Below are positions 17,251 to 50,222 of a stretch of 64,000 nt of DNA, piece by piece (positions within the stretch are counted from its first letter, which is position 1; every line of letters starts with the position of its first letter). The translations under genes and the position numbers were made by a program. The notes below the pieces were generated by a model, which saw only the letters and a list, made by a program, of their open reading frames with translations, ran no database searches and was not told the origin of the DNA. Origin of the DNA: Pseudomonadota bacterium (GTDB lineage: Bacteria > Pseudomonadota > Gammaproteobacteria > Burkholderiales > Burkholderiaceae_C); the NCBI GenBank assembly GCA_020161065.1, contig JAIUPH010000018.1:248001-312000 (forward strand), in the 5' to 3' direction.

Positions 17251-17934
17251 ATGAACCAGACGGTACAAAAGGTCCAGAGAAGCGCCGCCAAAGCCGCCAA
17301 AGCCGCCAAGCCCGAGGCGCGCACCAACGACCCCGAGCGCACGATGGCCGACATCCTGGCCGTGGCGACGCGCGAGTTCGCCGAGAAAGGCCTGGCCGGC
17401 GCCCGCATCGACGACATCGCCGAGGCCATGCGCACCAGCAAGCGCATGATCTACTACTACTTCGGCAGCAAGGAAGGCTTGTACATCCGCGTGCTGGAGG
17501 AAGCCTACCGCCGCATCCGCGCGATCGAGTCCGACCTTCACCTAGAGGACCTGCCGCCCGAAGACGCGCTGCGCCGGCTGGTCGGCTTCACGGTCGACTA
17601 CCAGCGCGAGAACCCCGACTTCATCCGCCTGGTGATGAACGAGAACATCCACCGCGGCGAGTACCTGGCGCAGAGCCAGGCCATCCATGGCCTCAACGTG
17701 CCGGCCATCGAAGGGCTGCGCCGGGTCTACCAGCGCGGGCTGAAGGCCGGCGTGTTCCGCACCGGCATCGATGCGGTCGACCTGCACCAGTCGATCAGCG
17801 CCTTGAGCTTCTTCAACGTCGCCAACCGGCACACCTTCTCGCTGATCTTCCAGCGCGACCTGGAGTCGCCCGCGGCGCAGATCGCGCGGCGCGACAGCAT
17901 CATCGAGATGGTGGTGCGCTTCGTGCGGCGCTGA
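17251..17934 (+). CDS. TetR-family transcriptional regulator
   Basis: 227-residue repressor-type regulator. After a Lys/Ala-rich arm (KAAKAAKPEAR), the HTH lies at about 30-78: ERTMADILAVATREFAEKGLAGARIDDIAEAMRTSKRMIYYYFGSKEGLY, the canonical TetR_N text. The C-terminal ligand domain contains the FIRLVMNENIHRGEYLAQSQAI and SALSFFNVANRHTFSLIF segments seen in regulators near aromatic and shikimate-type genes. It lies 75 bases before the end of the tannase-like gene and about 2.6 kb from the TRAP operon. NNNAAC-NN-GTTCGT elements in front of both could be its operators; this is inference. The effector is unknown. Confidence 0.9.
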   Translation: MNQTVQKVQRSAAKAAKAAKPEARTNDPERTMADILAVATREFAEKGLAGARIDDIAEAMRTSKRMIYYYFGSKEGLYIRVLEEAYRRIRAIESDLHLEDLPPEDALRRLVGFTVDYQRENPDFIRLVMNENIHRGEYLAQSQAIHGLNVPAIEGLRRVYQRGLKAGVFRTGIDAVDLHQSISALSFFNVANRHTFSLIFQRDLESPAAQIARRDSIIEMVVRFVRR

Positions 17935-18008
17935 GGGGCCGGCGAAGTGCCGATCACGTGCCGATCACGTGCCGATGAAGCGCCGCCCGCCGGCGGCGCT
18001 GCGGGCGT

Positions 18009-19693
18009 TCACTGGCAGTTGAAGCTGGCCGCGTCCTCCAGGCTGCCGCTGCCGGCGTAACGTGCCACCTTGGGATACGGGCACAGTGGCCGCGTGCGCG
18101 TGGCCGACCAGCCGGCCGGCAGTTCGGCGTTGACGCCGCCGGCGTTGCCGGCGCCGCGCGCGGCGGCCGTCAGCCGCTGCGGCGCCGTGCCTTGCTCGAC
18201 CCAGGCCACCAGCGCGCTCAAGGCGTCGAACTGGTCGGTCGCCGGGCCGCCGGCGCAATGCCCCATGCCGGGCACGCGGAACAGCCGCGCGTAGTCCGAC
18301 GGGTCGCCGCCGCGCTCGCGCAGGCGGTCGATGTAGGCGGCGCTGTCGTTGACCGAGAAGATCGGGTCGCTGACGCCGTGGTAGATCAGCAGCTTGCCGC
18401 CGCGGTTCTTCAGCGTCGACAGGTCCGACGGGTCGGGCGGCGTCATGAAGCTCATCGCCGACTCGGTGTAGACGGTGTTGGTCGCGTTGATCTGCGCCAC
18501 CATGCTGTCGATCGAGGTCGTCAGCGCCCATTGCGGGCCGTTGAAGCTGGCGGCCTCCGGCGGCACCTTGAAGATCAGGCCGACGGCGCCCGAGTCCAGC
18601 GCCAGCGGCGCCGTGAACTCCCAGAACGCGATGCCGCCGGCGCCGAGGCCGGCGTCGTACGGGAAGCTGGCATAGACGGCCGCGCCGCTGCTGGTGACGG
18701 CGCCGCTGAAGATCGGCGCGATGGCCGTCTTCTGCGCCGCGCTGAGGCAACTGCCGTCGCGCGCGCCGCTGCAGGTGGGCACGTCGGTCTGCAGGTTGAA
18801 GCTGCGCTGGCAGGCTTCCACGTCCTGCACCAGGCCATCGGTGGCGCCGTCCAGCGCATCGCACTTGGCCAGCACGGCGGCGGCCACGGTGGCGCGCTCG
18901 GCGGCGGTGAAGGCGCTGGACAGGTCGGCCGAGTTGCTGGCCACGCTGGCATAGCGCTGCGCGCCGAAGATGTTGGCCACCGCCGCCTTGGGCAGGTTGT
19001 AGCCCGGCGCGCCGGCCAGGATGCCGTCGTAGTCCGCGGCGTAGCGCGACGCCGCCACCAGCGCGTGGCGGCCGCCGTTGGAGCAGCCGCCGAAGTACGA
19101 GCGGTCGGGCCCCTTGCCGTAGGTGGCCTGGATCACGCCCTTGGCCATCGGCGTGAGCTTGCCGACGGCCTGGTAGCCGTAGTCCAGCCGCGCCTGCGGG
19201 TCGATGCCGAAGGCCGGGCCCTGCGCCGCGGTGTGGCCGGCGTCGGAACTCAGCACCGCGAAGCCCTGCGCCAGCGCGTGCGTCAGCGGCCCGCCGCCGA
19301 AGGCGCCGGTGGCGGCGACCACGTTGCCGTCGATGCCGCCGTTGCCTTGGTGCAGGAAGCGGCCGTTCCAGTTGCGCGGCAGGCGGATCTCGAAGCCGAT
19401 GGCATAGGCCTGGCCGTCGACGCTGCTGGTGCGCTCGTGCATCTTGCCGCTCACCAGGCAATGCTCGGGCACCGCCTGGCCGGCCACCGTCAGCGTGCCG
19501 GCGGCCACGGTGGTGACGGCGCTGATGCGGGTGTTGGCCGGCGTGCCGATGCGCCCCGCAGGTCAGCGCAACTACCGTTGTAGCTGGCCGGCGTCGCCGC
19601 GCCCAGCACCGGCAGCGAATCGCCGCCGCAGCCGGCCAGCAGCAGCGCGGCGGCCAGCGCCGGCACGCGGCCGGCATCGGGGAATCTTGGCAT
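18009..19693 (-). CDS. Tannase/feruloyl-esterase-family secreted esterase, apparent 1-nt frameshift near N-terminus
   Basis: Serine esterase of the tannase/feruloyl esterase family, which splits ester bonds of gallate or hydroxycinnamate conjugates. The long open part is 18009-19508. The CS-D-HC signature is intact: GGCSNGGRHAL, YHGVSDPIFS and VPGMGHCAGGP. The signal peptide is in another frame: ATG 19693 after GGAG gives MPRFPDAGRVPALAAALLLAGC, a lipobox, then NGSCADLRG. Restoring one base in the GGGG run at 19554-19557 joins this to RIGTPANTRISAVTTVAAG of the main frame. So either the gene is a recent pseudogene or the sequence has an error. Its neighbours (MarR, TRAP, shikimate-type enzymes) suggest a chlorogenate- or gallate-ester substrate. 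Confidence 0.82.
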
Positions 19694-19754
19694 GAGGTCT
19701 CCTCGGGGTGGCGCCCATCCGCGGCCGGCAACACGCCGCCGCGTCGGACGGGTC

Positions 19755-19777
19755 GTTAATGTGATTAACTTGTTCGT
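19755..19777 (-). promoter_or_regulatory. Operator-like palindromes upstream of tannase gene
   Basis: GTTAAT-GTG-ATTAAC (19755-19769) is a perfect 6-bp inverted repeat about 62 bases before the tannase ATG. Overlapping it is ATTAAC-TT-GTTCGT (19764-19777), which shares TAAC-NN-GTTCGT with a site in front of the TRAP operon (20492-20505). Both are good candidate sites for the TetR or MarR regulator nearby. Confidence 0.5.
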
Positions 19778-19823
19778 CACCTGCGATCGGTGTTGTCCCT
19801 AGGATGGAGCTACAAATTCAGTT

Positions 19824-19868
19824 TTCATTTGATATGAATTGGCAACCGATCGGCCGGCGGCCGACAAT
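19824..19868 (+). promoter_or_regulatory. marR promoter with abutting palindrome
   Basis: TTGGCA (19839-19844), an 18-base spacer and GACAAT (19863-19868) lie 7 bases before ATG 19876. A palindrome TTCAT-TTGAT-ATGAA (19824-19838) touches the -35 box, as expected for MarR autoregulation. There is no Shine-Dalgarno, so the mRNA is probably leaderless. Confidence 0.5.
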
Positions 19869-19875
19869 GCGGCCC

Positions 19876-20352
19876 ATGAAGCCGACGCCCCCCGAGCAGA
19901 CCCCTTTCGGCCGCCTCGACGAAGGCGCCCTCGCCCAGGTGCTGGGCTACCAGATCGTGCAGGCCAACCTGGCCACGCTGCAGCTCTTCGCCTCGGCGGT
20001 GGGCCGCGTTTTCGATCTGCGCCCGGTCGAGTTCACCGTGCTGGCGCTGGTCGACCAGAACCCCGGCCTGGCGGCCACGCAACTGGCCAAGGCGCTGGCG
20101 ATGACGCCGCCCAACGCCAAGCAATGGATCGACCGCCTGCAGGCGCGCGGCCTGCTGCAGCGCGAGCCGCACGCCACCGACGGCCGCGCGCTGCACATCC
20201 GCGCCACCAAGGCCGGCAGCGCGCTGTGCCGCAAGGCCGTGCAGGCGGTGACCGAGGCCGAGCGCCAAGGCCTGCCGGGCTTGAGCGCCGGCGAGCACGC
20301 CATCCTGCTGGAGCTGCTGCACAAGGTGGCGCGCAACCGCACCTCGCGCTGA
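19876..20352 (+). CDS. MarR-family transcriptional regulator
   Basis: 158-residue winged-helix regulator starting at ATG 19876 (MKPTPPEQTPFGRLDEG). Earlier in-frame ATGs fall inside the predicted promoter and operator. The wHTH is clear: FDLRPVEFTVLALVDQNPGLAATQLAKALAMTPPNAKQWIDRLQARGLLQREPHATDGRALHIRATKAG (about 45-118), including the D-x-R-A wing. Helical dimer arms flank it. MarR proteins often sense phenolic acids and repress genes for aromatic uptake or degradation, which suits its place between the tannase-like esterase (divergent) and the TRAP/shikimate run (same strand, 228 bases downstream). Confidence 0.88.
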   Translation: MKPTPPEQTPFGRLDEGALAQVLGYQIVQANLATLQLFASAVGRVFDLRPVEFTVLALVDQNPGLAATQLAKALAMTPPNAKQWIDRLQARGLLQREPHATDGRALHIRATKAGSALCRKAVQAVTEAERQGLPGLSAGEHAILLELLHKVARNRTSR

Positions 20353-20383
20353 GCGGCGCGCGGCAGCGGCAGCGGCAAGCGAC

Positions 20384-20418
20384 AGCAGCGAGCAGCGAGC
20401 AGCGAGCAGCAAGCGGCA
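20384..20418 (+). repeat. Five 7-bp tandem units (AGCAGCG)
   Basis: Three exact AGCAGCG copies are followed by AGCAGCA and AGCGGCA, in the untranslated gap between marR and the TRAP operon. The rest of that gap (20353-20580) holds an operator-like site at 20492 and no gene. Confidence 0.7.
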
Positions 20419-20491
20419 AGCCGTCACCGGCCGCCGCGCGACGGGCCCGCCGCGGCCGTCGCGCGGCCCTCGGGTTTTCCCGATATTCAAA

Positions 20492-20510
20492 ACTAACCAG
20501 TTCGTACATT
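20492..20510 (+). promoter_or_regulatory. Operator-like site in TRAP operon promoter
   Basis: ACTAAC-CA-GTTCGT (20492-20505) is a near-palindrome running into TACATT (20505-20510), a plausible -10 hexamer 70 bases before the dctQ start. It shares TAAC-NN-GTTCGT with the site upstream of the tannase gene, so one repressor may cover both. Confidence 0.45.
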
Positions 20511-20580
20511 CTTCGGCCCCACGCACCGGCTCGACGCCGGACAACGCCCACGACGACGCCCACGAACCGAAGGAGACGAG

Positions 20581-21192
20581 GTGACCGCAACTGCCGCTGC
20601 ACCGCCGCCCAGCTCGCTGCTCGACCGCTTCTGCCGCCTGCTGGACCTGGCCTCCGCGCTGGCGCTGGCGCTGATGGCCCTCATGGTCTTCGGCAACGTC
20701 GTGCTGCGCTATGCCTTCAACTCCGGCATCGCCGTCAGCGAGGAACTGTCGCGCTGGCTGTTCGTGTGGATGACCTTCCTCGGCGCGATGGTGGCGCTGA
20801 AGGAAAACGGCCACCTGGGCACCGACATGCTGGTGGCGCGCCTGGGCCGCACCGGCAAGCGCGTGTGCATGGTCCTGAGCCAGTTGCTGATGCTGGGCTG
20901 CACGCTGCTGCTGCTGCAAGGCAGCCTGGCGCAGGTGAAGATCAACTGGGACGTCGAGGCGCCGGTCACCGGCTGGTCGATGGCCATCGTCTACGCCGCC
21001 GGCGTGGCGTTCGCGGTGCCGGCCACGCTGCTGCTGCTGCGCCAGCTGTGGCGCACGCTGAGCAACCGCCTGGCCGACGACGAGCTGGTGATGGTGCAGG
21101 AGTCGGAAGACCTGGCCGCGCTGTCCCACGACAAGGGCCAGCACGACAAGAGCCAGCAGGACAAGGGCCAGAGCGAAGGAGCGCCGCGATGA
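20581..21192 (+). CDS. TRAP transporter small permease (DctQ)
   Basis: Four-helix small subunit of a tripartite ATP-independent periplasmic transporter, 203 residues from GTG 20581 (AGGAG five bases upstream). Helices run at about 22-42, 58-78, 98-118 and 138-160. The family texts ALALALMALMVFGNVVLRY and SEELSRWLFVWMTFLGAMVALKENGHLGTDML are diagnostic. The C-terminus carries a repeated DKGQ/DKSQ tail. DctQ pairs with DctM in the membrane to drive sodium-coupled uptake of organic acids. Its stop overlaps the dctM ATG. The operon context suggests quinate/shikimate-like substrates. Confidence 0.92.
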   Translation: MTATAAAPPPSSLLDRFCRLLDLASALALALMALMVFGNVVLRYAFNSGIAVSEELSRWLFVWMTFLGAMVALKENGHLGTDMLVARLGRTGKRVCMVLSQLLMLGCTLLLLQGSLAQVKINWDVEAPVTGWSMAIVYAAGVAFAVPATLLLLRQLWRTLSNRLADDELVMVQESEDLAALSHDKGQHDKSQQDKGQSEGAPR

Positions 21193-22466
21193 CCGTCGCC
21201 GTCTTCCTGGGCGCGCTGCTCGGCGCGATGGCGCTGGGCATGCCCATCGCGTATGCGCTGCTCGTCTGCGGCGTCGCGCTGATGGCCTACCTGAACATGT
21301 TCGACGCGCAGATCCTGGCGCAGAACCTGATCGGCGGCGCCGACAGCTTCCCGCTGCTGGCCGTGCCCTTCTTCATGCTGGCCGGCGAGATCATGAACGT
21401 CGGCGGCCTGTCGCGGCGCATCGTCAACCTGGCGCTGACGCTGGTGGGCCACGTGCGCGGCGGCCTCGGCTACGTGACCATCCTGGCCGCGGTGCTGATG
21501 GCGGCGCTGTCGGGCTCGGCGGTGGCCGACACCGCGGCGCTGGCCGCGCTGCTGCTGCCGATGATGAAGGCCGCCGGCCACAACGAAGGCCGCGCCGGCG
21601 GGCTGATCGCCTCGGCCGGCATCATCGCGCCGGTGATCCCGCCGTCGATCGGCTTCGTGATCTTCGGCGTCGCCGCCAACGTGTCGATCGGCAAGCTGTT
21701 CATCGCCGGCATCGTGCCCGGCATCCTGCTGGGCGTGGGCATCGCCATCACCTGGTGGTGGGTGGCGCGCAACGAGAACGTGACGCCGCCGCCCAAGGCC
21801 AGCCGCGCCGAACGGATGACGGCCTTCCGCTCGTCGCTGTGGGCGCTGTTCCTGCCGGTCATCGTGCTGGTGGGGCTGAAGATGGGCGTCTTCACGCCGA
21901 CCGAGGCCGCCGTGGTGGCCGCCGCCTACGCCTTCTTCGTGGCCACCTTCGTCTACCGCGAACTGTCGTTCAAGCAGCTGGTGCCGGTGTTCGTCAGCGC
22001 CGCCAAGACGACCGCGGTGATCATGTTCCTGGTCGCCGCGGCCATGGTCTCGGCCTGGCTGATCACGGTGGCCAACCTGCCGGCCGAGTTGACGGCGCTG
22101 CTGCAGCCGCTGATCGACCAGCCGACGCTGCTGCTGATCGTCATCATGATCATCACGATGGTGGTCGGCACCGCGATGGACATGACGCCCACCATCCTGA
22201 TCCTGACGCCGGTGCTGATGCCGGTGGTCAAGGCCGCCGGCATCGACCCGGTGTACTTCGGCGTGCTGTTCATCATCAACAACGCGATCGGCCTGATCAC
22301 GCCGCCGGTGGGCACCGTGCTGAACGTGGTGGCCGGCGTCGGCCGCATGAAGATGGACACCGTCACCGTCGGCGTGCTGCCCTTCATGCTGGCGCAGTTC
22401 GCGGTGATGTTCCTGCTGGTGATCTTCCCCCAGCTCGTGCTGGTCCCCATGAAGTGGTTCTACTGA
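21189..22466 (+). CDS. TRAP transporter large permease (DctM)
   Basis: Channel-forming large subunit, 425 residues, normal length. Typical texts: LGMPIAYALLVCGVALM, the loop LLAVPFFMLAGEIMNVGGLSRRIVNLA, GSAVADTAALAALLLPMMKAAGHN, SAGIIAPVIPPSIGFVIFGVAANVSIGKLFIAGIVPGILLG, and late in the protein NNAIGLITPPVGTVLNVVAGVG. These are the two pseudo-repeats of the elevator transporter, with conserved SGS and P-P-S/G motifs near the sodium and substrate sites. Start ATG 21189 overlaps the dctQ stop. It is followed 24 bases later by the binding protein. Confidence 0.94.
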   Translation: MTVAVFLGALLGAMALGMPIAYALLVCGVALMAYLNMFDAQILAQNLIGGADSFPLLAVPFFMLAGEIMNVGGLSRRIVNLALTLVGHVRGGLGYVTILAAVLMAALSGSAVADTAALAALLLPMMKAAGHNEGRAGGLIASAGIIAPVIPPSIGFVIFGVAANVSIGKLFIAGIVPGILLGVGIAITWWWVARNENVTPPPKASRAERMTAFRSSLWALFLPVIVLVGLKMGVFTPTEAAVVAAAYAFFVATFVYRELSFKQLVPVFVSAAKTTAVIMFLVAAAMVSAWLITVANLPAELTALLQPLIDQPTLLLIVIMIITMVVGTAMDMTPTILILTPVLMPVVKAAGIDPVYFGVLFIINNAIGLITPPVGTVLNVVAGVGRMKMDTVTVGVLPFMLAQFAVMFLLVIFPQLVLVPMKWFY

Positions 22467-22489
22467 CTTTCGACCCGAGGAGATAGACG

Positions 22490-23494
22490 ATGGACAAGCG
22501 TTCGATGATCAAGCCGCTGCTGGCGCTGGCCGCGCTGGCCGTGTTCGGGGGCGCCAGCGCCCAGGTGCAGGAGCGCAGCTTCAAGTTCGCGCTGCAAAAC
22601 CCCAAGGGCCATCCGCTGGAGATGGGCGCCACCAAGTTCGCCGAGCTGGTGGCCGCCAAGTCGGGCGGCAAGATCAAGGTCAACGTCTTCCCCGGCGGCA
22701 CGCTGGGCGGCGACGCGCAAACCGTCTCGGCGCTGCAGGGCGGCACGGTGGAGATCACGGCGCTCAACAGCGGCATCCTGGCCAGCCAGGTGAAGGACTT
22801 CGCGGTCTACGACTTCCCCTTCATGTTCGCCAACGCGAAAGAGGCCGACACCGTGGTCGACGGCCCCTTCGGCCAGAAGCTGCACGCCAAGCTGGCCGAG
22901 AAAGGCATCGTGGGCCTCGGCTACTGGGAGCTGGGCTTTCGCAACCTGACCAACGGCCGCAAGGCGATCAACACGGTGGACGACATCGCCGGCCTCAAGC
23001 TGCGCGTGATCCCCAACGCGATCAACGTCGACTGGGTCAAGGCGCTCGGCGCCAACCCCACGCCGATGGCCTTCCCCGAGGTCTACGCCGGGCTGGAGAG
23101 CAAGGCCATCGACGGCCAGGAGAACCCGCTGTCGGTGATCCTCGCCAACAAGTTCTACGAGGTGCAGAAGTACCTGGCGCTGACCAACCACCAGTACAAC
23201 CCGCAGTCGCTGATCTTCAGCAAGAAGGTGTGGGACGGGCTGTCGGCCGACGAGAAGAAGATCGTCCAGGACGCAGCCACCGAAGCCGGGCGTTATCAAC
23301 GCCAGGTCAACCGCGAGGCGGCGGCCGGCCAGCTTGAACAGCTCAAGAAGTCGGGCATGCAGGTGACCGAGTTCAACGCCGCCGAGCAGGCCAAGCTGCG
23401 CGCCAAGCTGGCCCCGGTGATCGAAAAGCACGGCGCGCCCATCGCTGCCACCGTGGCCGATCTGCAGGCCGAGCTGGCCAAGCTCCGCAAGTGA
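22490..23494 (+). CDS. TRAP transporter periplasmic binding protein (DctP)
   Basis: Periplasmic receptor of 334 residues with a signal peptide (KPLLALAALAVFGGASAQ). DctP-family texts: HPLEMGATKFAELVAAKSGGKIKVNVFPGGTLGGDAQTVSALQGGTVEI, YDFPFMFANAKEADTVVDGPFGQKL, GYWELGFRNLTNGRK and the substrate-clamp Arg region GLKLRVIPNAINVDWVKALGANPTPMAFPEVYAGLESKAIDGQENPL. The conserved Arg in LRVI normally salt-bridges the carboxylate of the ligand, so the cargo is an organic acid. GAGGAGATAG precedes the ATG. Its stop overlaps the GTG of the dehydrogenase, tying transporter to enzyme. Confidence 0.93.
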   Translation: MDKRSMIKPLLALAALAVFGGASAQVQERSFKFALQNPKGHPLEMGATKFAELVAAKSGGKIKVNVFPGGTLGGDAQTVSALQGGTVEITALNSGILASQVKDFAVYDFPFMFANAKEADTVVDGPFGQKLHAKLAEKGIVGLGYWELGFRNLTNGRKAINTVDDIAGLKLRVIPNAINVDWVKALGANPTPMAFPEVYAGLESKAIDGQENPLSVILANKFYEVQKYLALTNHQYNPQSLIFSKKVWDGLSADEKKIVQDAATEAGRYQRQVNREAAAGQLEQLKKSGMQVTEFNAAEQAKLRAKLAPVIEKHGAPIAATVADLQAELAKLRK

Positions 23495-24351
23495 ACGCCA
23501 AGCCGCTCATCGGCCTGATCGGCGCCGGCATCCAGCGTTCGCTGACGCCGGCGCTGCACGAGGCCGAGGGCCAGGCCCAGGGCCTGCGCCTGCACTACCA
23601 GTTGATCGATCTCGACCGTCGCCAGCTCGGCCCCGAGGCGCTGCCCGCGCTGCTGGATGCGATGCGCACCATCGGCTTCGCCGGCTTCAACGTCACCTAC
23701 CCCTGCAAGCAGGCGGTGATCGAGTGGCTCGACGAGCTGTCCGACGAGGCGCGGGCGATGGGCGCGGTCAACACCGTGGTGCTGCGCGAGGGCCGGCTGG
23801 TCGGCCACAACACCGACGGCTCGGGCTGGCGCTGGGGCTTCGAGCGGCTGCTGCCCGGTGCCGACACGCGCTGCGTGGCGCTGCTGGGCGCCGGCGGCGC
23901 CGGCTCGGCGATCGCCCATGCCCTGCTGCGCCTGGGCGCCGCCGAGCTGCGCGTGGTCGACAGCGACGGCGCGCGCGCCGAAGCGCTGGCCGACGCGCTG
24001 AACCGCCAGTACCCGGGCCGCCGCACACACGGCGGCAGCGACGCCGCGGCCGCGCTGCAAGGCGCCAGCGGTCTGGTGCACGCCACGCCCACCGGCATGG
24101 ACAAGCTGCCCGGGCTGCCGCTGCCGGCAGCGTTGCTGCACGACGGGCTGTGGGTCAGCGAGATCGTCTACTTTCCACTGGATACCGCGTTACTTGTTGA
24201 GGCCCGCGCGCGCGGCTGCCGCGTGGCCGACGGCGGCGGCATGGCGGTGGGCCAGGCGGTGGGCGCCTTCGAGCACTTCACCGGCCTGAAGCCCGACGCG
24301 ACGCGGATGGACGCGCATTTCCGCCGGCTCGTCGCGCCACGGAGGATTTGA
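23491..24351 (+). CDS. Shikimate/quinate dehydrogenase-like oxidoreductase (AroE/YdiB family)
   Basis: 286-residue dehydrogenase of the AroE superfamily, GTG start inside the dctP stop. The substrate site is intact: IQRSLTPALHE (Ser-x-Thr), FAGFNVTYPCKQAVI with the catalytic Lys, GAVNTVV and HNTDGSGW with the catalytic Asp. The Rossmann loop is LLGAGGAGSAIAHALL. After the second strand it has RVVDSDGAR rather than the NRTxxR of NADP enzymes, which favours NAD and a catabolic quinate/shikimate role. Linked to a TRAP transporter and dehydratase-like genes, it should oxidise imported quinate or shikimate, not work in aromatic amino acid synthesis. Confidence 0.88.
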   Translation: MNAKPLIGLIGAGIQRSLTPALHEAEGQAQGLRLHYQLIDLDRRQLGPEALPALLDAMRTIGFAGFNVTYPCKQAVIEWLDELSDEARAMGAVNTVVLREGRLVGHNTDGSGWRWGFERLLPGADTRCVALLGAGGAGSAIAHALLRLGAAELRVVDSDGARAEALADALNRQYPGRRTHGGSDAAAALQGASGLVHATPTGMDKLPGLPLPAALLHDGLWVSEIVYFPLDTALLVEARARGCRVADGGGMAVGQAVGAFEHFTGLKPDATRMDAHFRRLVAPRRI

Positions 24352-25295
24352 TGACGCCCACGCTGGACCGCGAAGCGGTGATCGACGCCCCCAACCCGCT
24401 GGGGCTGGCGGGCATCGAGTTCGTCGAATACACCACCCCGCGCCCGCAGGCGCTGGGCCAGGTGCTGGAGCAGATGGGCTTCCGCCCGGTGGCGCGCCAC
24501 CGCTCGCGCGAGGTCACGCGCTACCGCCAGGGCGACATGAACGTGATCGTCAACGCCCACGGCCTGCCGCCGGGCACCGACGAGGCGCCGCAGCTCGCCG
24601 CGTTGTGCCTGCGCGTGCGCGACGCGGCGGCCGCCTGGCGCCGCGTGGTCGGCCTCGGCGCCTGGCCGGTGCCGGTGAACGTGCAGCCGATGGAGCTGCA
24701 CATTCCCGGCATCCACGGCGTGGGTTCGAGCCGCATCTTCTTCGTCGACCGCTGGAACGAGGCCCCCAAGACGGCGCCAGCGCCGTCGGCCCCCCAAGGG
24801 GGCGCTCCCGCGCTTGAGGCGGCTCGGCGCGCGGGCGACTTTTGCATCTACGACGTCGACTTCATCCCCATCCCCACCGTCGACCCCGAGGTGCCGGCCA
24901 CCGAGGGCCTGCACTGGTTCGGCGTCGTGCAGTACGTGGGCGTCGGCCGCATCGCCGACTGGTGCGAGTTCTACGGCGCCTTGTTCGGCTTTGCGGCGCT
25001 GCCCGACGAGCAGCGCTTCGGCATCCTGCCGGCCGGGCGCGTGCTGCGCTCGCCCTGCGGCAGCTTCTACCTGCAGTTGATCGAGCCGCCGCCCGACGTG
25101 GACGATGCCGGCAGCGAGCAGTTGCAGCGCCTGGCCTTCGGCGCCGCCGACGTGCCGGCCGCGGTGCGCGCGCTGCGCGCGCGCGGCGTCGAGTTCGTCG
25201 ACGCCGCCGCGCTGCACCCCGACGCCCGCGGCGCGCTGACGCAAGCGCTGTTCGGCGGCGTGAGGTTCGAGCTGGTCCACCACGTGCAAGGCTGA
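24351..25295 (+). CDS. VOC/4-hydroxyphenylpyruvate-dioxygenase-like protein, possible half of QuiC-type dehydratase
   Basis: 314 residues from ATG 24351, five bases after GGAGG; the A of the upstream TGA stop is shared. Two VOC modules resemble HPPD: GIEFVEYTTPRPQALGQVLEQMGFRPVARHRSREVTRYRQGDMNVIVN at the start, then YDVDFIPIPT, LHWFGVVQYVGVGRIADWCEFYGALFGF and a closing GGVRFELVHHVQG with His and Glu positions suitable for metal. In pseudomonads a domain of this kind is fused to the C-terminus of the 3-dehydroshikimate dehydratase QuiC. Here it is separate and precedes the TIM-barrel partner. Residues about 141-166 (PKTAPAPSAPQGGAPALEAA) look inserted and coincide with a GC hairpin repeat. 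Confidence 0.8.
   Translation: MTPTLDREAVIDAPNPLGLAGIEFVEYTTPRPQALGQVLEQMGFRPVARHRSREVTRYRQGDMNVIVNAHGLPPGTDEAPQLAALCLRVRDAAAAWRRVVGLGAWPVPVNVQPMELHIPGIHGVGSSRIFFVDRWNEAPKTAPAPSAPQGGAPALEAARRAGDFCIYDVDFIPIPTVDPEVPATEGLHWFGVVQYVGVGRIADWCEFYGALFGFAALPDEQRFGILPAGRVLRSPCGSFYLQLIEPPPDVDDAGSEQLQRLAFGAADVPAAVRALRARGVEFVDAAALHPDARGALTQALFGGVRFELVHHVQG
24790..24802 (+). repeat. GC hairpin repeat, copy B, inside a coding gene
   Basis: CCCCCC-AA-GGGGG, flanked by G and C to make a 6-bp stem, sits in frame within the HPPD-like gene. It encodes part of a Pro/Ala/Gly-rich insert. It has the same C6-N2-G5 architecture as intergenic copies at 3071 and 50687. Confidence 0.55.
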
Positions 25296-25297
25296 GC

Positions 25298-26203
25298 ATG
25301 GCGCACCGCCACATCGCCGATTTCGGCATGGACACCATCTCGCTGGCCGGCCCGCTGGCGGCCAAGCTGGCGGCCATCCGCGAGGCTGGCTTCGGCCAGG
25401 TGATGCTGGCCGCGCGCGACCTCGTCGGCCACGCCGGCGGCTGGCGCGCCGCGGTGCAGGAGGTGCGCGACAGCGGCTTGCGCGTGACGGGATTCCAGGT
25501 GCTGCGCGACTTCGAAGGCCTGTCGGGCCATTTGCACGACTACAAGGTCGAGATCGCGCGCTCGATGCTGCAGATGTGCGCCGCGCTCGGCAGCCCGGTG
25601 CTGCTGGCCTGCTCGTCGACCAGCCCGCACGCCAGCGCCGACCGCGACGCCATCGCGCGCGACCTGCGCAAGCTGGCGATGATGGCGCTGCCGCTGGACA
25701 TCAAGGTCGCGTTCGAGGGCCTGAGCTGGGGCCGCCACCTCAACGACCTGGTCGGCGCCTGGGACGTGGTGCGCCGCGCCGACTGCCCCAACCTCGGCGT
25801 CGGCATCGACAGCTACCACTCGTTTGCCACCGAGACGCCGCTGGACGCGCTGGCCGAGGTCGATGCCGAGCGCATCTTCCTGGTCCAGCTGTCCGACTTC
25901 ATGTGGGCGCGCGTGCCCACGCCCGAAGAACGCAAGGAGACGGCGCGCACCTTCCGCGTCTTTCCCGGCGAGGGCGTGCACAGCGAGGCGCTGCAGCGGC
26001 TGGTGATCGCGCTGGCCGCCAAGGGCTACCGCGGCGACTACAGCTTCGAGGTCTTCAACGACGACTACGTGCAACTGCCGCTGGAGACGGTGGCCGAGCG
26101 CGCCCGCCGCTCGGCCGCCTGGCTGGCCGAGGACGTGCTGCGCCGCGCCGTGCCGCTGCCCGGTCAGGCGTTCATGACGGCGACGGCGCGCACGTTGAGG
26201 TAG
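25298..26203 (+). CDS. TIM-barrel sugar-phosphate isomerase/epimerase-like protein, candidate 3-dehydroshikimate dehydratase
   Basis: 301-residue AP-endonuclease-2-fold TIM barrel starting 2 bases after the HPPD-like stop. Strand ends carry likely metal ligands: [17 protein letters not shown] (Glu), [12 protein letters not shown] (Asp, His), [12 protein letters not shown] (Gln) and YSFEVFNDD (Glu). The FRVFPGEG loop is typical of the fold. This matches the N-terminal half of QuiC-type and AsbF-type 3-dehydroshikimate dehydratases, which make protocatechuate. Position after TRAP and quinate/shikimate dehydrogenase genes supports that role. The last 40 bases overlap the convergent aldehyde dehydrogenase gene. 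Confidence 0.83.
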
Positions 26204-27603
26204 GCCTCCAGCGCCTCGGGCCCGCCTTCGGAGCCGTAGCCCGAGTCCTTGATGCCGCCGAAGGGCATCTCGGCCGAGGGCATCGCCGGCATGTTGATCC
26301 ACAGCATGCCGACCTCCAAGCGCCGCGCCAGCAGGTCGGCGTTCTTCAGCGATCGCGTGAACGCGTAGCTCGCCAGCCCATACGGCAGGCGGTTGGCTTC
26401 GGCGATGGCTTCGTCGAGCGTGTCGAACGCGCGGATCGCCGCCATCGGCCCGAAGGGTTCGTCGTTGAACACCTGGGCGTCGAGCGGCACGTCGGCCAGC
26501 AGCGTGGGCTCGAAGAAGTTGCCGCTGCTGCCGATGCGCTTGCCGCCGGTCAGCAGCGCGGCGCCGCGCGCCACCGCGTCTTCGGTGAAAGCCGCCATCG
26601 CGGCCAGCCGGCGCGGGTTGGCCAGCGGGCCCATCTGCGTGCCGGCGGCCAGGCCGTCGCCCACCTGCAGCCGGCGCGCGTGCGCGGTGAAGGCGTCGAC
26701 GAAATCCTGGCGCACGCTGCGCTGCACCAGAAAACGCGTCGGCGAGATGCACACCTGCCCGGCGTTGCGGAACTTGGCGGCGCCGGCGGTCTTCACGGCC
26801 AGCGCGATGTCGGCGTCGTCGCAGACGATCACCGGCGCATGCCCGCCGAGTTCCATCGTCACGCGCTTCATGTGCTGGCCGGCCATCGCGGCCAGTTGCT
26901 TGCCCACCGGCGTGGAGCCGGTGAAGGTGACCTTGCGGATCACCGGGTGCGGGATCAGGTAGCTCGAAATCTCCGCCGGATTGCCGTAGACCAGGCCCAG
27001 CACGCCCGGCGGCAGCCCGGCGTCGGCAAAGGCGCGCACCAGCGCGGCCGGCGCCGCCGGCGTTTCTTCCGGCGCCTTGACGATCATCGAGCAGCCGGCC
27101 GCCAACGCCGCGCTGACCTTGCGCACCACCTGGTTGATCGGAAAGTTCCAAGGCGTGAAAGCCGCCACCGGGCCGACCGGGTCGCGCAGCACCATCTGGC
27201 GCAGCGCCAGGCTGCCGCGCGAGGGCACGATGCGGCCGTAGATGCGAAAGCCCTCCTCGGCGAACCATTCGATGATGTCGGCCGCGCTCAGCGTCTCGGC
27301 CTTGGCCTCGGCCAGCGGCTTGCCCTGCTCTTGCGTCAGCACGGCCGCGATGGCTTCGGCGCGCTCGCGCATCAGGCCGGCGGCCTTGCGCATGATCTTG
27401 CTGCGCTCGGCCGCCGTCAGGTCGCGCCAGGTGGCGAAGCCTTTTTGCGTGGCGGCCAGCGCGGCGTCGAGGTCGGCGCGGCCGGCGTGGGCGACGCGGC
27501 CGATCGGTTGGCCGGTGGCCGGGTTGTGGACCGCCAGCGTGCGGCCGTCGGCGGCGTCGCACCAGGTGCCGTCGATGAAGAGTTGGGTGTCGGGGTAGCT
27601 CAT
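26164..27603 (-). CDS. NAD(P)-dependent aldehyde dehydrogenase (succinate-semialdehyde type)
   Basis: 479-residue ALDH superfamily enzyme; ATG 27603 follows AAGGAG by 4 bases. Signatures: N-terminal [58 protein letters not shown] (cofactor), [22 protein letters not shown] with the general-base Glu (about 250) and [12 protein letters not shown] with the nucleophilic Cys (about 284). The closing [16 protein letters not shown] is typical of GabD-like enzymes. It oxidises an aldehyde such as succinate semialdehyde to the acid. It converges on the TIM-barrel gene with a 40-base overlap and starts 26 bases after the VapC-like gene on the same strand. Confidence 0.93.
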
Positions 27604-45901: not shown

Positions 45902-48301
45902 TCAGGCGGCCAGCGCCGGCATGCGCGGCGCCGCGGCCGGCCGATGTTGTTCGGCCCAGGCCTCGATGAAGGCGCCCACCTGCGCCGCCGGCAGCGGCTG
46001 GCTGATCAGGAAGCCCTGCAGGCGCTGGCAGCCGCGTTCGCGCAGCATCTGCGCCTCGACGCGGCTTTCCACGCCTTCGGCGACGGTGGTCATGCCGAGC
46101 GCGCGCGACATCGCCAGGATGGTGTCGACGATGACCTGCGCCTCGCCGTCGTGCGACAAGTCGCGCACGAAGCTGCGGTCGATCTTCAGCGTGTCGAAGG
46201 CGAAGCGGCGCAGGTAGCCCAGCGCCGAATAGCCGGTGCCGAAGTCGTCCAGCGCGGTGCGAAAGCCCAGCGCGCGCAGCGCCTGCAGCGTGGCCACGGC
46301 GCCCTCGGTGTCCTCGATCAGCGCCGATTCGGTGATCTCCAGCTCCAGCTGCTGCGGCCGCAGCCCGGCGGCCGCCGCGAGCACGCGCGCCGGCAGGCCC
46401 GGCGCCGCCAGCTGCGAGGCCGAGACGTTGATCGACACCGACACGTTCGCCGGCCAGCGCGCGGCGTGGCGGCAGGCCTCGGCCAGCACCCAGTCGCCGA
46501 TGGCCGGCATCAGGCCGCTGCTTTCGGCGATGGCGATGAACTCGGCCGGCCCGACCTCGCCGTGCTCGGGGTGGCGCCAGCGCAGCAGCGCCTCGAAGCC
46601 GCACAGCCGGCTGACCTGGCTGTCCACCTGGGGCTGGAACTCCAGCCGGAATTCGCCACGCGCGGCGGCGCCTTCCAGCGCCTGCGCCAGCGCGCTGCGG
46701 CGGCGGCCGACCTCGGCCAGCTCGGCGTGGAAGACGCAGTGCCGGTGGCCGCCGTCGCGCTTGGCGGCGTACATCGCGATGTCGGCGTGGTTGAGCAGCG
46801 TGTCGACGTCGTCGCCGTGCTGCGGCGCGATGGCCACGCCGATGCTGGCGCGCAGCGACAGCGGCGGCGCGCCGGCCGCTTCGCCGGGCTGCGACAGCGC
46901 GGCGTGCAGCCGCTCCAGCAGCGGCTGCAGCGCCGCCGCATCGCTGGCGCCGCGCACCAGCATCGCGAACTCGTCGCCGCCCAGCCGCGCCACGGTGTCG
47001 CTGCGCCGCGCCACCGACAGCAGCTGGCGGCCGAAGGTCTGCAGCAGCAGGTCGCCGGCGGCGTGGCCGCGCGTGTCGTTGACCTGCTTGAAGCCGTCGA
47101 GGTCGAGCGTGATCACGGCCAGCGCCGGCGGCGCGCCGCTGCCGGGCTGCAGCAGCGCCTGCAGCAGCTCGCGGAACTGCGCGCGGTTGACCAGCCCGGT
47201 CAACGCGTCGTTGTGCGCCAGCCAGCTCAGGCGGCGGTGCGCCAGCTGGCGGTCGGTGACGTCGGTGGCCACGCCGCGCCAGCCGAGGAAGGCGCCGCCG
47301 TCGCCGACCAGCGGCCGCGCGCTGAGCGACCACCATTGCAGCGCGCGGCCGGCGCGCAGGCACAGCAGGTGGTCGCGGAACGCCGTGCGCCGGCGCAGCA
47401 GGCTGCGCAGCCCGGCCCAGTGGCTGCGCGCGTCGTCGCTGTCGTGCACCGCGCGCGCCAGCAGGCCGAAGGCGCGCAGCCGGCGCAGGCGCGCCGGCGG
47501 CTGGCCCAGCACGGTGGCCAGGCGCTGCGCCACGTGGGCGAAGCGGCCCTCGGCGTCGGTCTCCCACAGCAGGTCGCTGGCGTGGTCTTCGAAGTCGCGC
47601 AGCAGCAGGCCGATCACCTCGTGCTGGTGGTCGGCGCGCGCCTCGGCCATCAGCCGCGCGCCCAGCGTGCGCGCATAGGTCCACACCGAATGGATGACGA
47701 TCAGCGTGTACAGCGCCAGCACCAGCGCCAGCGGCAGCCCGGTGCCCGGCGGCCCCTGCAGCAATCCGGCCGCGCCGCCGGTGACCAGCGCCAGCACGTA
47801 CAGCGTGGCGGCCACCGGCAGGCTGGACAAGGCAAAGCCGCCGGCGCAGATCATGCCGGTGGTGACGATGCCGATGAAGAACTGCGACGGCGCATCCACC
47901 CGTGCATAGAACAGCGCCGGCAGCAGCCCCCAGACGGCGCCCAGCACGCCGGCGTTGACGGCGGCGCGGTTCAGCACGCGCGGCGGCATCGTGGCCGTCG
48001 TGCGGCGCCGGCGCTGGCGCAGCCAGCCGCGCAGGCTGAGCAGCGCCAGCACGCACACCGCGGCGGCCCACAGCGCGACCAGCGGCTGCACGCTCTGGCG
48101 GCGCAGCGCCCAGACGATGAACAGCGAATTGAGGATGTTGACCGCCATGCCCAGCCGCGTGAAGCGCATCACCGCCTGCACCTGGCGCGCGCGGAAGCGG
48201 CCGGCGTCGCGCTCGTCGGCCTCGTAGGCGCGGAACAGGGCCGGCAGCCGGTGCAGCGCGCCGTGCACGCGCGCAAGGGGGCGGCGCAGCGCCTCAGGCA
48301 T
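45902..48301 (-). CDS. Membrane-bound PAS-GGDEF-EAL protein (cyclic-di-GMP turnover)
   Basis: 799 residues. Five or six N-terminal helices (about 50-210) form a membrane sensor. A PAS-like domain follows (about 235-350), ending WRGVATDVTDRQ. GGDEF is intact at 441-445 (RLGGDEF) with the inhibitory site RRSD four residues before the RLGG turn. EAL is intact at about 570 (FEALLRWRHPEHG), with ITESALIED, LDDFGTGYSALGYLRRF, LKIDRSFV and AEGVES. Both synthase and phosphodiesterase activities are therefore possible. It shares an 8-base overlap with the second GGDEF-EAL gene upstream, so the two are coexpressed. Confidence 0.93.
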   Translation of the reverse strand: MPEALRRPLARVHGALHRLPALFRAYEADERDAGRFRARQVQAVMRFTRLGMAVNILNSLFIVWALRRQSVQPLVALWAAAVCVLALLSLRGWLRQRRRRTTATMPPRVLNRAAVNAGVLGAVWGLLPALFYARVDAPSQFFIGIVTTGMICAGGFALSSLPVAATLYVLALVTGGAAGLLQGPPGTGLPLALVLALYTLIVIHSVWTYARTLGARLMAEARADHQHEVIGLLLRDFEDHASDLLWETDAEGRFAHVAQRLATVLGQPPARLRRLRAFGLLARAVHDSDDARSHWAGLRSLLRRRTAFRDHLLCLRAGRALQWWSLSARPLVGDGGAFLGWRGVATDVTDRQLAHRRLSWLAHNDALTGLVNRAQFRELLQALLQPGSGAPPALAVITLDLDGFKQVNDTRGHAAGDLLLQTFGRQLLSVARRSDTVARLGGDEFAMLVRGASDAAALQPLLERLHAALSQPGEAAGAPPLSLRASIGVAIAPQHGDDVDTLLNHADIAMYAAKRDGGHRHCVFHAELAEVGRRRSALAQALEGAAARGEFRLEFQPQVDSQVSRLCGFEALLRWRHPEHGEVGPAEFIAIAESSGLMPAIGDWVLAEACRHAARWPANVSVSINVSASQLAAPGLPARVLAAAAGLRPQQLELEITESALIEDTEGAVATLQALRALGFRTALDDFGTGYSALGYLRRFAFDTLKIDRSFVRDLSHDGEAQVIVDTILAMSRALGMTTVAEGVESRVEAQMLRERGCQRLQGFLISQPLPAAQVGAFIEAWAEQHRPAAAPRMPALAA

Positions 48302-50222
48302 TGCGCGGCTCGGTCAGCGGCATGCGATCCGTCAGCGGCATGCGGTCGGTCGCTGGCGCTCGATCGGCCAGCGGCATGCGGTCGGTCGCCGGCGCGCGAT
48401 CCGGCAACGGCGCCGGGCGCTGCACGGCATGGCCCTGCGCGAAGTCGACGCCCAGCGCGCGCAGCTCGGCGATCACCGCGTCGGACTCGGCGTACTCGCC
48501 CACCGTGTGCAGGCCCATCAGGTGGCCGATGCGGTTGATGGTCTCGACCATCGCGCGGTCGACCATGTCGCGCGCGATGTTGCGCACGAAGCTGCCGTCG
48601 ATCTTGAGCACATCCACCGGCAGCGTCTTCAGGTAGGCGAACGAGCTGGCGCCGACGCCGAAGTCGTCCAGCGCGAACAGAAAGCCCTGCTGGCGCAGCT
48701 CGCGCAGCAGCAGCCGGGTGCGGCTGATGTTGTTGACGGCGGCCGTCTCGGTGATCTCGAAGCACACGCTGCCGGCCGGCAGGCGGTGCTGGTGCGCCTG
48801 CTCCAGGATGTGCTCCAGCAGCCCGTCGGCGTTGAGCGTGGTGCCCGACAGGTTGATCGCGCAGACCAGCCCCTGGCCGAGCTGCGCCGCCAGCGCGTGG
48901 TAGCGGCTGAAGACCTGCTCGATGACCCAGCGGTCGATGCGCGGCATCAGGTTGAAGCGCTCGGCCGCCGGCAAGAAGGTGCCCGGCGCCACGAGGCGGC
49001 CTTCCTCGTCGATCAGGCGCAGCAGGATCTCGATGTGCGGCTTGTCGGCCAGCGCCGCCGTCAACGCGCGGTAGGGCTGGTGGTACAGCGTCAGCCGCCC
49101 CTGCTCCAGCGCATGCGTCACGCGCGCGGCCCAGCCCATTTCCTGGCGGCGCTGCACCAGCTCGTCGTCGCTGCTCTGGTGCACGCACACGCGGTTGCGG
49201 CCCTGGTCCTTGGCCCAGTAGCAGGCGGCGTCGGCGGCGCTGAAGATCTCGGCGGTGTTGACGCTCATGTCGTCCACCGCGGCCAGCCCGATGCTGGCGC
49301 CGACGCTGAACACGCGCCCCTCCCACGCGAAGCGGTAGCCGCGCAGCGCGCGCAGCATCTGCTCGGCGGCCAGTTGCGCGCGCGACAGGCAGCAGTCTTC
49401 CAGCAGCACGCCGAACTCGTCGCCGCCCAGGCGGGCCAGCACGTCGCCCTTGCGAAGCTGCTGCTGCAGCACGCCGGTCAGCGCGCGCAGCAGCGCGTCG
49501 CCGGCGGCGTGGCCGCTGGTGTCGTTGACCAGCTTGAACTGGTCGAGGTCGATGAAGCACACCGCGTGGCGGCGGCCGGTACTACGCGCGTTCTGCAGCG
49601 CGGCTTCGGTGCTGGACTCGAACTCGCGGCGGTTGAGCAGGCCGGTCAGCGCGTCGTGCGCGGCGGCCCAGCGGATGCGCTGCGCCATGCGACGCAGCGT
49701 GGAGACGTCGCGCAGCACCAGCGCGGCGCCGATGGCGCGGCCCTCGGCGTCGTGCAGCCGCGAGGCCGCCACCTCCACCGCCACCAACTCGCCGCTGCCG
49801 CCGCGGCGGCGCAGCGCCAGCGCATCGCCTTCGCGGCGCGAGCTGGCCTGCTCGCGCAGCAGCTCGTGCAGCGGATCGGCCAGCGGCACGCCGTCGTTCT
49901 CGTCGATGAGCGGACAGATCTCGGCCAGCGGCCGGCCGCGCGCCTGCTCGGCCAGCCAGCCGGTCAGCCGTTCGGCGCTGGGGTTCATCGACTCGACGAC
50001 GCCGCCCGAGCCGGTGGTGACGACGGCGTCGCTGATCGAGGCCAGCGTCACGCGGGCGTGCTCGCGCTGCGAGCGCGCCTCGGCCTGCAGCAGCCGCGAG
50101 CGCGTGCGCAGCCGCCGCCGCCCGAAGCCCAGCCCGAGGGCGGTGGCCAGCGCCAGCAGCAACAGCAGCGCGCCGACCGTGGCCGGGCTGCTGAGGAGGG
50201 GCTGGAGGGCGTCAGGAGTCAT
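48294..50222 (-). CDS. PAS-GGDEF-EAL protein with variant EAL motif
   Basis: 642 residues from ATG 50222. One helix (SPATVGALLLLLALATALGLGFG, about 12-36) anchors it. A PAS domain follows (VTLASISDAVVTTGSGGVVESMNPSAERLTGWL), then GGDEF with RLGGDEF and inhibitory-site RKGD. The EAL domain starts with EILLRLIDEEG in place of EALLRW, keeps ITETAAVNN, LDDFGVGASSFAYLKTLPVDVLKIDGSFV, but has VGEYAES where AEGVE is usual. The ExLxR frame is kept, so phosphodiesterase activity is possible. A Met-Pro-Leu repeat tail (ATDRMPLADRAPATDRMPL) ends the protein. It is divergent from the ferredoxin gene. Confidence 0.92.
   Translation of the reverse strand: MTPDALQPLLSSPATVGALLLLLALATALGLGFGRRRLRTRSRLLQAEARSQREHARVTLASISDAVVTTGSGGVVESMNPSAERLTGWLAEQARGRPLAEICPLIDENDGVPLADPLHELLREQASSRREGDALALRRRGGSGELVAVEVAASRLHDAEGRAIGAALVLRDVSTLRRMAQRIRWAAAHDALTGLLNRREFESSTEAALQNARSTGRRHAVCFIDLDQFKLVNDTSGHAAGDALLRALTGVLQQQLRKGDVLARLGGDEFGVLLEDCCLSRAQLAAEQMLRALRGYRFAWEGRVFSVGASIGLAAVDDMSVNTAEIFSAADAACYWAKDQGRNRVCVHQSSDDELVQRRQEMGWAARVTHALEQGRLTLYHQPYRALTAALADKPHIEILLRLIDEEGRLVAPGTFLPAAERFNLMPRIDRWVIEQVFSRYHALAAQLGQGLVCAINLSGTTLNADGLLEHILEQAHQHRLPAGSVCFEITETAAVNNISRTRLLLRELRQQGFLFALDDFGVGASSFAYLKTLPVDVLKIDGSFVRNIARDMVDRAMVETINRIGHLMGLHTVGEYAESDAVIAELRALGVDFAQGHAVQRPAPLPDRAPATDRMPLADRAPATDRMPLTDRMPLTEPRNA
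48305..48420. repeat. Tandem repeat in the tail of the GGDEF-EAL gene
   Basis: Imperfect units of about 36 bases based on GTCAGCGGCATGCGGTCG encode the DRMPL(A/T)DRAPAT tail. The last unit runs up to the junction with the next gene, so copy-number change would only alter the tail. Confidence 0.7.

Follow-up and report, generated by a model that had tools for sequence, protein, structure and literature searches.

A putative quinate utilization unit with a TRAP transporter and a split dehydroshikimate dehydratase in a Burkholderiales genome

The window analyzed here comprises 64,000 nucleotides of contig JAIUPH010000018.1 (assembly GCA_020161065.1, positions 248,001 to 312,000, forward strand) from a bacterium of the order Burkholderiales, probably related to Rubrivivax. 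It harbors a gene run encoding a TetR-family regulator, a tripartite ATP-independent periplasmic (TRAP) transporter, a dehydrogenase of the AroE type, and a 3-dehydroshikimate dehydratase preceded by a separate gene for a protein resembling 4-hydroxyphenylpyruvate dioxygenase (HPPD); a tannase-family and a MarR-family gene are located between the TetR gene and dctQ (Table 1). We conclude with a probability of about 0.77 that, apart from the tannase and MarR genes, the run from 17251 to 26203 is a unit for utilization of quinate, and probably of shikimate, which combines TRAP uptake, AroE, the split dehydratase and a TetR/palindrome switch. Substrate, complex formation and regulation of the unit are what we infer.

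Gene run and conserved regulator

The transporter and enzyme genes follow each other closely. A preceding sequence-only reading of positions 18009..26203 had called their junctions mostly overlaps: three junctions overlap (DctQ/DctM and DctP/AroE by 4 nt each, AroE/HPPD-like by 1 nt within TGATG), and two contain short gaps (DctM/DctP 23 nt, HPPD-like/dehydratase 2 nt). The same reading had placed an esterase, MarR and TetR regulators, a TRAP transporter, an AroE-like and QuiC-like genes in this interval. All of them are present on the positions given there, each with a match to its own family, except for the TetR gene, which is present but lies outside the interval.

Table 1. Genes and features of the analyzed region (positions refer to the window)
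Feature	Position	Strand	Evidence and remarks
TetR-family regulator (TetR_N + TetR_C_29)	17251..17934	+	Domain match; conserved neighbor; presumed local repressor
Tannase/feruloyl-esterase-family catalytic body	18009..19508	-	PF07519; outside the conserved unit
Lipoprotein-like signal start stretch	19509..19693	-	Frame differs from tannase body
MarR-family regulator	19804..20352	+	Domain match; no counterpart in 80 kept relatives
16-bp palindrome AACTAACCAGTTCGTA (pattern WACNAACNNGTTNGTW)	20491..20506		Presumed operator; about 75 bp before dctQ
DctQ, TRAP small permease	20581..21192	+	PF04290, 101.8 bits
DctM, TRAP large permease	21189..22466	+	PF06808, 417 bits
DctP, TRAP solute-binding protein, presumed quinate binder	22490..23494	+	Family match, tree
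Quinate/shikimate dehydrogenase-like AroE	23491..24351	+	Shikimate_dh_N, NF009201
HPPD-like (vicinal oxygen chelate) protein, presumed structural partner of the dehydratase	24351..25295	+	Glyoxalase_5 (HPPD N-terminal)
Stand-alone 3-dehydroshikimate dehydratase, relative of the QuiC N-terminal domain	25298..26203	+	Xylose-isomerase-like TIM barrel

Conservation of the gene order was analyzed in relatives. A scan with the dehydratase covering one genome per species (84,980 species) revealed 477 related stretches; the 80 best (L071-L150) are referred to below as the kept relatives or loci. By their titles these belong mostly to Burkholderiales genera or unplaced Pseudomonadota, and all counts apply to that group. 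Gene content was counted in the 66 kept loci of at least 14 kb. The TRAP transporter was present in 47 of these 66 loci, and because 46 of the 47 also carry TetR and all 47 AroE, the TRAP-TetR-AroE arrangement is far beyond chance. Furthermore, the HPPD-like protein is encoded upstream of the dehydratase by a gene of its own in all 80 kept relatives. TetR and dctQ are at most 265 bp apart and in the same direction in 43 of the 47 kept loci in which both were placed, as compared to 2.6 kb in the window, where the tannase and MarR genes fill the stretch. Other open reading frames (ORFs) occupy this gap in some relatives (L072 1349-4923, L077 2833-3885, L146 3098-4039). Apparently, the gap accepts insertions while the palindrome stays with dctQ. 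Two contigs filed under Chitinophaga pinensis (L089) and Singulisphaera (L104) are likely mis-binned; their operons are placed in trees close to those of Malikia and Limnohabitans.

The palindrome pattern WACNAACNNGTTNGTW was found in 43 of 55 dctQ upstream regions. In 111 relative loci (2.03 Mb) it occurred 51 times, counted as before a gene if within 400 bp of the start of the matched gene: 43 times before dctQ, five times before aroQ (L082, L084, L089, L091, L107), twice before aroE (L078 and L137, both lacking a TRAP of the window type), once before tetR, and never elsewhere. Ten Markov controls of the same size contained no copy. In the genome of the window (6.29 Mb), a stricter form allowing at most one mismatch occurred once, at the dctQ site, and a reversed-pattern control gave no match in this genome. 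TetR is encoded in 41 of the 42 kept loci with the palindrome; 29 loci have neither, and nine have TetR and no palindrome. By this correlation, the TetR gene product likely binds the palindrome. The conserved regulator of the unit is, as judged from gene content, TetR and not MarR, which the sequence-only reading had included as a regulator of the system; no MarR counterpart was detected in the 80 kept relatives at E 1e-8. Searching the open-licence literature with three spellings of the palindrome yielded no occurrence.

The TRAP transporter and AroE

DctQ, DctM and DctP each match their family, in agreement with the complete transporter that had been claimed. A studied counterpart exists in Sinorhizobium meliloti. 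According to the respective publication, SMb20034-6 constitute a TRAP transporter and SMb20037 an AroE protein at the same locus, SMb20036 binds D-quinate with a Kd of 5.9 nM and shikimate with a Kd of about 1e-4 M, and quinate raises expression of its gene 8.7-fold (PMC3454389). On pSymB of S. meliloti 1021 the window DctP matched positions 46712-47656 (54%), followed directly by the only AroE match of this record (E 1e-20) at 47778-48611 (59%); the record is without gene names there, and the matches were equated with SMb20036-37 via the published gene order and the ORFs. Counterparts of DctQ (49%) and DctM (66%) are located before DctP, and one of TetR (52%; 51.6%) nearby. In contrast to the window, no dehydratase lies beside the S. 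meliloti transporter; a QuiC relative is found about 133 kb away round the circle (NZ_CP065022). Relative to this locus type, the window has a split dehydratase pair and a palindrome in addition.

Searching the genome of the window with SMb20036 returned the window DctP first (365 bits), and with SMb20037 the window AroE (318 bits; next match 48 bits). In a DctP tree of 82 rows, a clade of 60 rows with 100/98 support comprises the window protein, the syntenic TRAP loci, SMb20036, and the Azospirillum and Vitreoscilla proteins. The 14 paralogues found in the genome of the window and the unlike DctP proteins of L055, L092, L115, L146 and L147 are placed outside this clade. With DctP in the SMb20036 clade and DctQ, DctM and AroE adjacent, the TRAP-AroE unit corresponds, by sequence comparison, to the quinate TRAP locus of S. 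meliloti. Quinate is therefore, by orthology, the best-supported substrate of DctP, as judged from SMb20036 binding, synteny, back-search and the DctP tree together. This agrees with the previous proposal of quinate import by TRAP; QuiX and ShiA, which transport quinate and shikimate, are of the major facilitator superfamily (MFS) type, and the window would use a TRAP transporter for the same substrates.

Only four DctP columns (N93, G142, L148 and Q239) both vary little within the clade and set it apart from each of the three nearest paralogues of the same genome; they were not used as evidence for specificity, because ligand contacts could not be mapped. Three more TRAP binding proteins, 38-48% identical to SMb20036, are encoded within about 13 kb on contig C35 of this genome (206001-226000, L173). 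Additionally, PDB 4p47, a TRAP binding protein solved under a generic name, scored 595 bits to SMb20036 and probably belongs to the quinate group, judging from its sequence.

The window AroE scored 410.8 bits with the shikimate dehydrogenase model NF009201 (cut-off 235) and 247.4 bits with NF010631, the equivalog model for NAD-dependent quinate/shikimate dehydrogenases, remaining below the cut-off of 515. Its closest solved relative is Corynebacterium glutamicum QsuD (PDB 3jyo; 132 identities in 281 aligned columns). QsuD residues S17, T19, T69, K73, N94, D110 and D158, which we take to be catalytic, substrate and NAD residues, are all kept. Thus, the window protein is like QsuD in its substrate and cofactor positions, but unlike it stays below the NF010631 cut-off. 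It has the shikimate dehydrogenase fold with K73, D109 and D157, presumably the catalytic Lys/Asp pair and the acidic NAD-type loop, and the QsuD match and kept residues support its earlier description as an NAD-type quinate/shikimate dehydrogenase-like enzyme. Another AroE is encoded in the same genome at C31:91643. In the TRAP-bearing kept loci the AroE slot is occupied either by the window type or by a type represented by L040 (about 34% alike) and by both in none of the 47; the L040 type stays below every NCBIfam cut-off listed.

The genome contains a single AroQ, on C31 and outside the cluster, and no type I dehydroquinate dehydratase was found in it. Consequently, 3-dehydroquinate derived from quinate must use the AroQ on C31, whereas shikimate would bypass AroQ.

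The split dehydratase pair and the fate of protocatechuate

Comparison of the dehydratase with its relative QuiC1 (PDB 5hmq) gave about 34% identity, with matching residues in 91 of 271 aligned columns. The active-site residues of QuiC1, as given in its description, are R64, L97, E134, L136, D165, H168, Q191, S206, R210 and E239 (PMC7442255). They were mapped with a two-residue shift of the PDB chain, which brings every one of the ten into register with its published letter. Nine of the ten are kept in the window protein, and S206 is replaced by alanine. Alanine at this position was found in 103 of 105 rows of the stand-alone class and in three of 12 rows of the fused class. At the metal ligands E134 and E239, no replacement was seen in any of the 80 kept rows. 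Both halves of a QuiC-like dehydratase had been claimed and are present, and the nine kept residues support the predicted dehydration to protocatechuate.

The architecture of the pair differs from that of QuiC1 and QsuB, with which it shares the TIM-barrel dehydratase, the active site and the HPPD-like module. A two-domain dehydratase is one polypeptide with the TIM barrel first and the HPPD-like part second, but the window has two genes in the reverse order, which scored 162.5 and 63.2 bits with NF042435 (cut-off 1200 bits). In all 102 split pairs the HPPD-like gene lies upstream, with an AroE-like gene in between in four of them (L048, L050, L051, L056), and all 11 fused proteins have the TIM barrel first; a fused polypeptide in the reversed order was not encountered among these 102 pairs and 11 proteins. 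No HPPD-like match was obtained at L057, at the 41% copy of L061 and at L068; the partner at L068 may be too distant from the query. In the dehydratase tree, a long, fully supported branch (SH-aLRT) separates the stand-alone from the fused kind. The dehydratase also does not qualify as a single-domain enzyme of the AsbF-like or fungal type: its only PDB matches at E 0.001 were 5hmq, 1i60 and 3u0h, and the HPPD-like partner gene in all 80 kept loci also counts against this class, of which Qa-4 was not directly compared. The split form is, by these sequence criteria, outside the four published dehydratase classes.

In 399 genomes of the order, that of the window included, a dehydratase match was detected in 32. 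These contain 35 dehydratase rows, 23 of the stand-alone kind (at least 41% identity) and 12 of the QuiC kind (33-39%), and three genomes have both. On plasmid unnamed2 of Massilia putida (L154), a fused QuiC and a split pair were found in one cluster with a porin gene, an MFS gene, aroQ and two AroE genes; both kinds also occur within a few kb in the genomes G192, G367 and G058.

The HPPD-like protein scored 68.8 bits with the HPPD model TIGR01263 (cut-off 277 bits) and is not an HPPD by this measure. Positions 161, 240 and 322 of PDB 1cjx are presumably the two His and one Glu iron ligands of HPPD. In the 17 aligned HPPD-like proteins, the first site never carries a His but an invariant glycine (G192) or a gap, the second is an invariant arginine (R261), and the glutamate (E308) is kept. 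Unlike this protein, which lost two iron ligands, QuiC1 and two fused relatives retain DH and HH motifs at the iron sites, as read by eye. The predicted model (pLDDT 82) gave TM scores of about 0.71 to HPPDs and 0.67 to 5hmq in a fold search, and its top PDB matches were HPPD and then QuiC1; this confirms the HPPD fold and does not inform on function.

For QsuB, the published work reports that no dioxygenase activity was detected and proposes that the HPPD-like domain serves oligomerization; a protocatechuate-cleaving role suggested for this half is quoted there as well (PMC7442255). The split form points the same way as the proposed oligomerization role, and the loss of iron-site residues speaks against protocatechuate cleavage. 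Presumably, the HPPD-like protein and the dehydratase bind each other. It is an even bet that the pair at 24351-26203 represents a fifth, two-subunit kind of dehydroshikimate dehydratase common in Burkholderiales, with an iron-less former dioxygenase as obligate scaffold or product-sensing subunit, in a unit under a single-target TetR/palindrome switch answering quinate or a pathway intermediate.

The fate of protocatechuate was examined in the same genome, where the sequence-only reading had advised looking for pca genes. The best PcaH match reached 60.7 bits (TIGR02422 cut-off 296.4), and a 3,4-cleavage pathway is thus not indicated; a LigA/LigB pair for 4,5-cleavage on C31 (L038), in contrast, exceeded both cut-offs (TIGR02792 231.7 over 108.6, NF009903 574.5 over 317). 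Its neighbors encode a Gfo/Idh-type dehydrogenase, an amidohydrolase-like protein, an RraA-like protein, LysR and a second tannase-family protein; we assume that these roles correspond to a pmd/lig 4,5-cleavage operon. A further LigA/LigB pair was found on C27. Protocatechuate probably goes to the pmd-type operon, as judged from these matches.

At its 3' end, the dehydratase gene overlaps tail to tail by 40 nt with an aldehyde dehydrogenase ORF on the minus strand (PF00171, window 26164-27597), the top NCBIfam match of which is of the succinate-semialdehyde type and under the cut-off.

Proposed pathway and alternatives

TRAP transport is sodium-driven. In the proposed pathway, DctP would capture quinate in the periplasm and DctQM would import it. 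AroE would oxidize quinate with NAD to 3-dehydroquinate, which the single AroQ encoded elsewhere would convert to 3-dehydroshikimate; shikimate would enter directly. The dehydratase would then form protocatechuate, with the HPPD-like protein as a non-catalytic oligomerizing or stabilizing subunit, and the pmd-type 4,5-dioxygenase on C31 would cleave the product. TetR would bind the palindrome and repress the genes from dctQ on, with quinate or an intermediate relieving the repression.

Several observations weigh against this interpretation. The 80 kept loci are the best of 477 and therefore biased toward close kin, and a TRAP of the window type is missing from 19 of the 66 loci; some loci without it carry another TRAP nearby, and one a branched-chain-type ATP-binding cassette (ABC) transporter. 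The margin in the DctP back-search is small (365 versus 352 bits for a paralogue on C35), and the assignment leans on the tree. The unit has no dehydroquinate dehydratase of its own, whereas 19 of the 47 TRAP-bearing loci contain one. The metal ligands E134 and E239 are replaced in four of the 105 stand-alone rows (L047, L054, L055, L060), and not every member of this class can thus be a dehydratase; these homologues are perhaps inactive or changed enzymes by their sequence, and L060 retains TRAP and AroE. For members of the split class, no growth, binding or enzyme data were found. Furthermore, 12 of the 55 dctQ upstream regions have no palindrome, and neither have the loci of S. meliloti and Azospirillum; the pairing with TetR is thus particular to the bacterial group of the window, or the site has diverged. 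L073 and the Vitreoscilla locus L153 have the palindrome and no TetR in the stretch examined, and the link to TetR is consequently a correlation. In Limnohabitans sp. JirII-31 (L097 4498-9066), the split pair follows a branched-chain-type ABC transporter instead of TRAP.

Shikimate could be the main substrate, imported by TRAP and converted by AroE to 3-dehydroshikimate in one step, so that no dehydroquinate dehydratase is needed. The cluster without AroQ agrees with this, as do the one AroQ and missing type I enzyme in the genome and the 28 of 47 TRAP-bearing loci that also have no dehydroquinate dehydratase. However, SMb20036, which belongs to the same DctP clade and has been studied experimentally, has a more than 15,000-fold preference for quinate over shikimate (PMC3454389), the remaining 19 of the 47 loci do contain aroQ, and in five loci aroQ carries a palindrome of its own; moreover, of the ORFs listed at the S. 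meliloti TRAP-AroE locus, none next to it is an aroQ, as read by eye. That shikimate is the sole substrate, as deduced from the missing AroQ, was in view of the binding of quinate by SMb20036 kept only as an alternative, which we regard as unlikely.

The sequence-only reading had assumed a full ester chain, starting outside the cell with the cleavage of chlorogenate or galloyl-quinate esters by a secreted esterase and running through the whole cluster to protocatechuate. The tannase body scored 450.4 bits with PF07519 (cut-off 29.8) and contains the motifs GCSNGG, D and HC, as read by eye; together with MarR it fills the interval from TetR to dctQ. Three of the 80 kept relatives have a tannase-family gene in the vicinity of the operon as well, with 24-56% identity (L113 before TetR, L130 and L134 after the dehydratase), and the second tannase-family protein of the genome (PF07519, 454 bits; L038 10042-11739 on C31) directly adjoins LigA/LigB. 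However, the lipoprotein-like signal (minus strand, ATG at 19693) and the body do not share a frame, and the frame of the signal runs into a stop; the body has no in-frame export signal, and secretion of the enzyme could thus not be upheld. The frame break may be an assembly error or indicate a decaying gene, and an internal start without signal is possible. The gene is on the opposite strand, and no palindrome copy was found at it. In the 32 genomes with a dehydratase, 19 of which contain a tannase over the cut-off, the genome of the window is the only one with a tannase at most 20 kb from the dehydratase by the listed coordinates; distances were compared by eye, and as some assemblies are in short contigs, a few neighbors could be missed. 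Repeated recruitment of a tannase beside the operon, suggested by the three relatives, was dropped on account of this result. Conservation with the transporter had been set beforehand as the test for both enzymes: the dehydratase was found conserved, but the esterase was not, and its inclusion in the quinate system is not supported. The tannase and MarR look lineage-specific from their distribution, and MarR probably goes with the divergent tannase, judging from its position; outside the kept relatives, L067 contains a 33% MarR match near its TetR. Altogether, the ester chain appears improbable.

The import of another polyhydroxy acid, on which the AroE-like and dehydratase-like enzymes would act, is the most improbable alternative: the second-best solved DctP relative 7bbr, presumably a sugar-acid binder, belongs to the same broad group, AroE-fold enzymes with other substrates exist (7cok, a 5-ketofructose reductase, 117 bits), and a few distant dehydratase-class members lack the metal ligands, but the DctP clade, QsuD as best solved match of AroE and the dehydratase active site all agree on a quinate route, and a fused QuiC and aroQ lie beside the same TRAP-AroE unit in Azospirillum.

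This latter cluster, on pAB510c of Azospirillum sp. B510 (AZL_RS25360-25390), is like the quinate unit of the window in its AroE, TRAP and TetR counterparts (51-69%) but has a fused QuiC, a dedicated aroQ and no palindrome match. Among the titles and abstract openings listed for open-licence PMC papers, none dealt with quinate uptake by TRAP in Burkholderiales, with a QuiC split in two, or with TetR control of quinate genes. The dehydratase split and the palindrome are additions beyond the earlier reading of the operon.

On Vitreoscilla pVF1, the dehydratase pair is labeled '4-hydroxyphenylpyruvate dioxygenase' and 'sugar phosphate isomerase/epimerase family protein'. Because of such generic labels, a quinate route recurring in Comamonadaceae and Rubrivivax relatives stays hidden. 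The palindrome is a target for a quinate biosensor. Finally, since its halves can be expressed apart, the split form makes the function of the HPPD-like half of QuiC testable.

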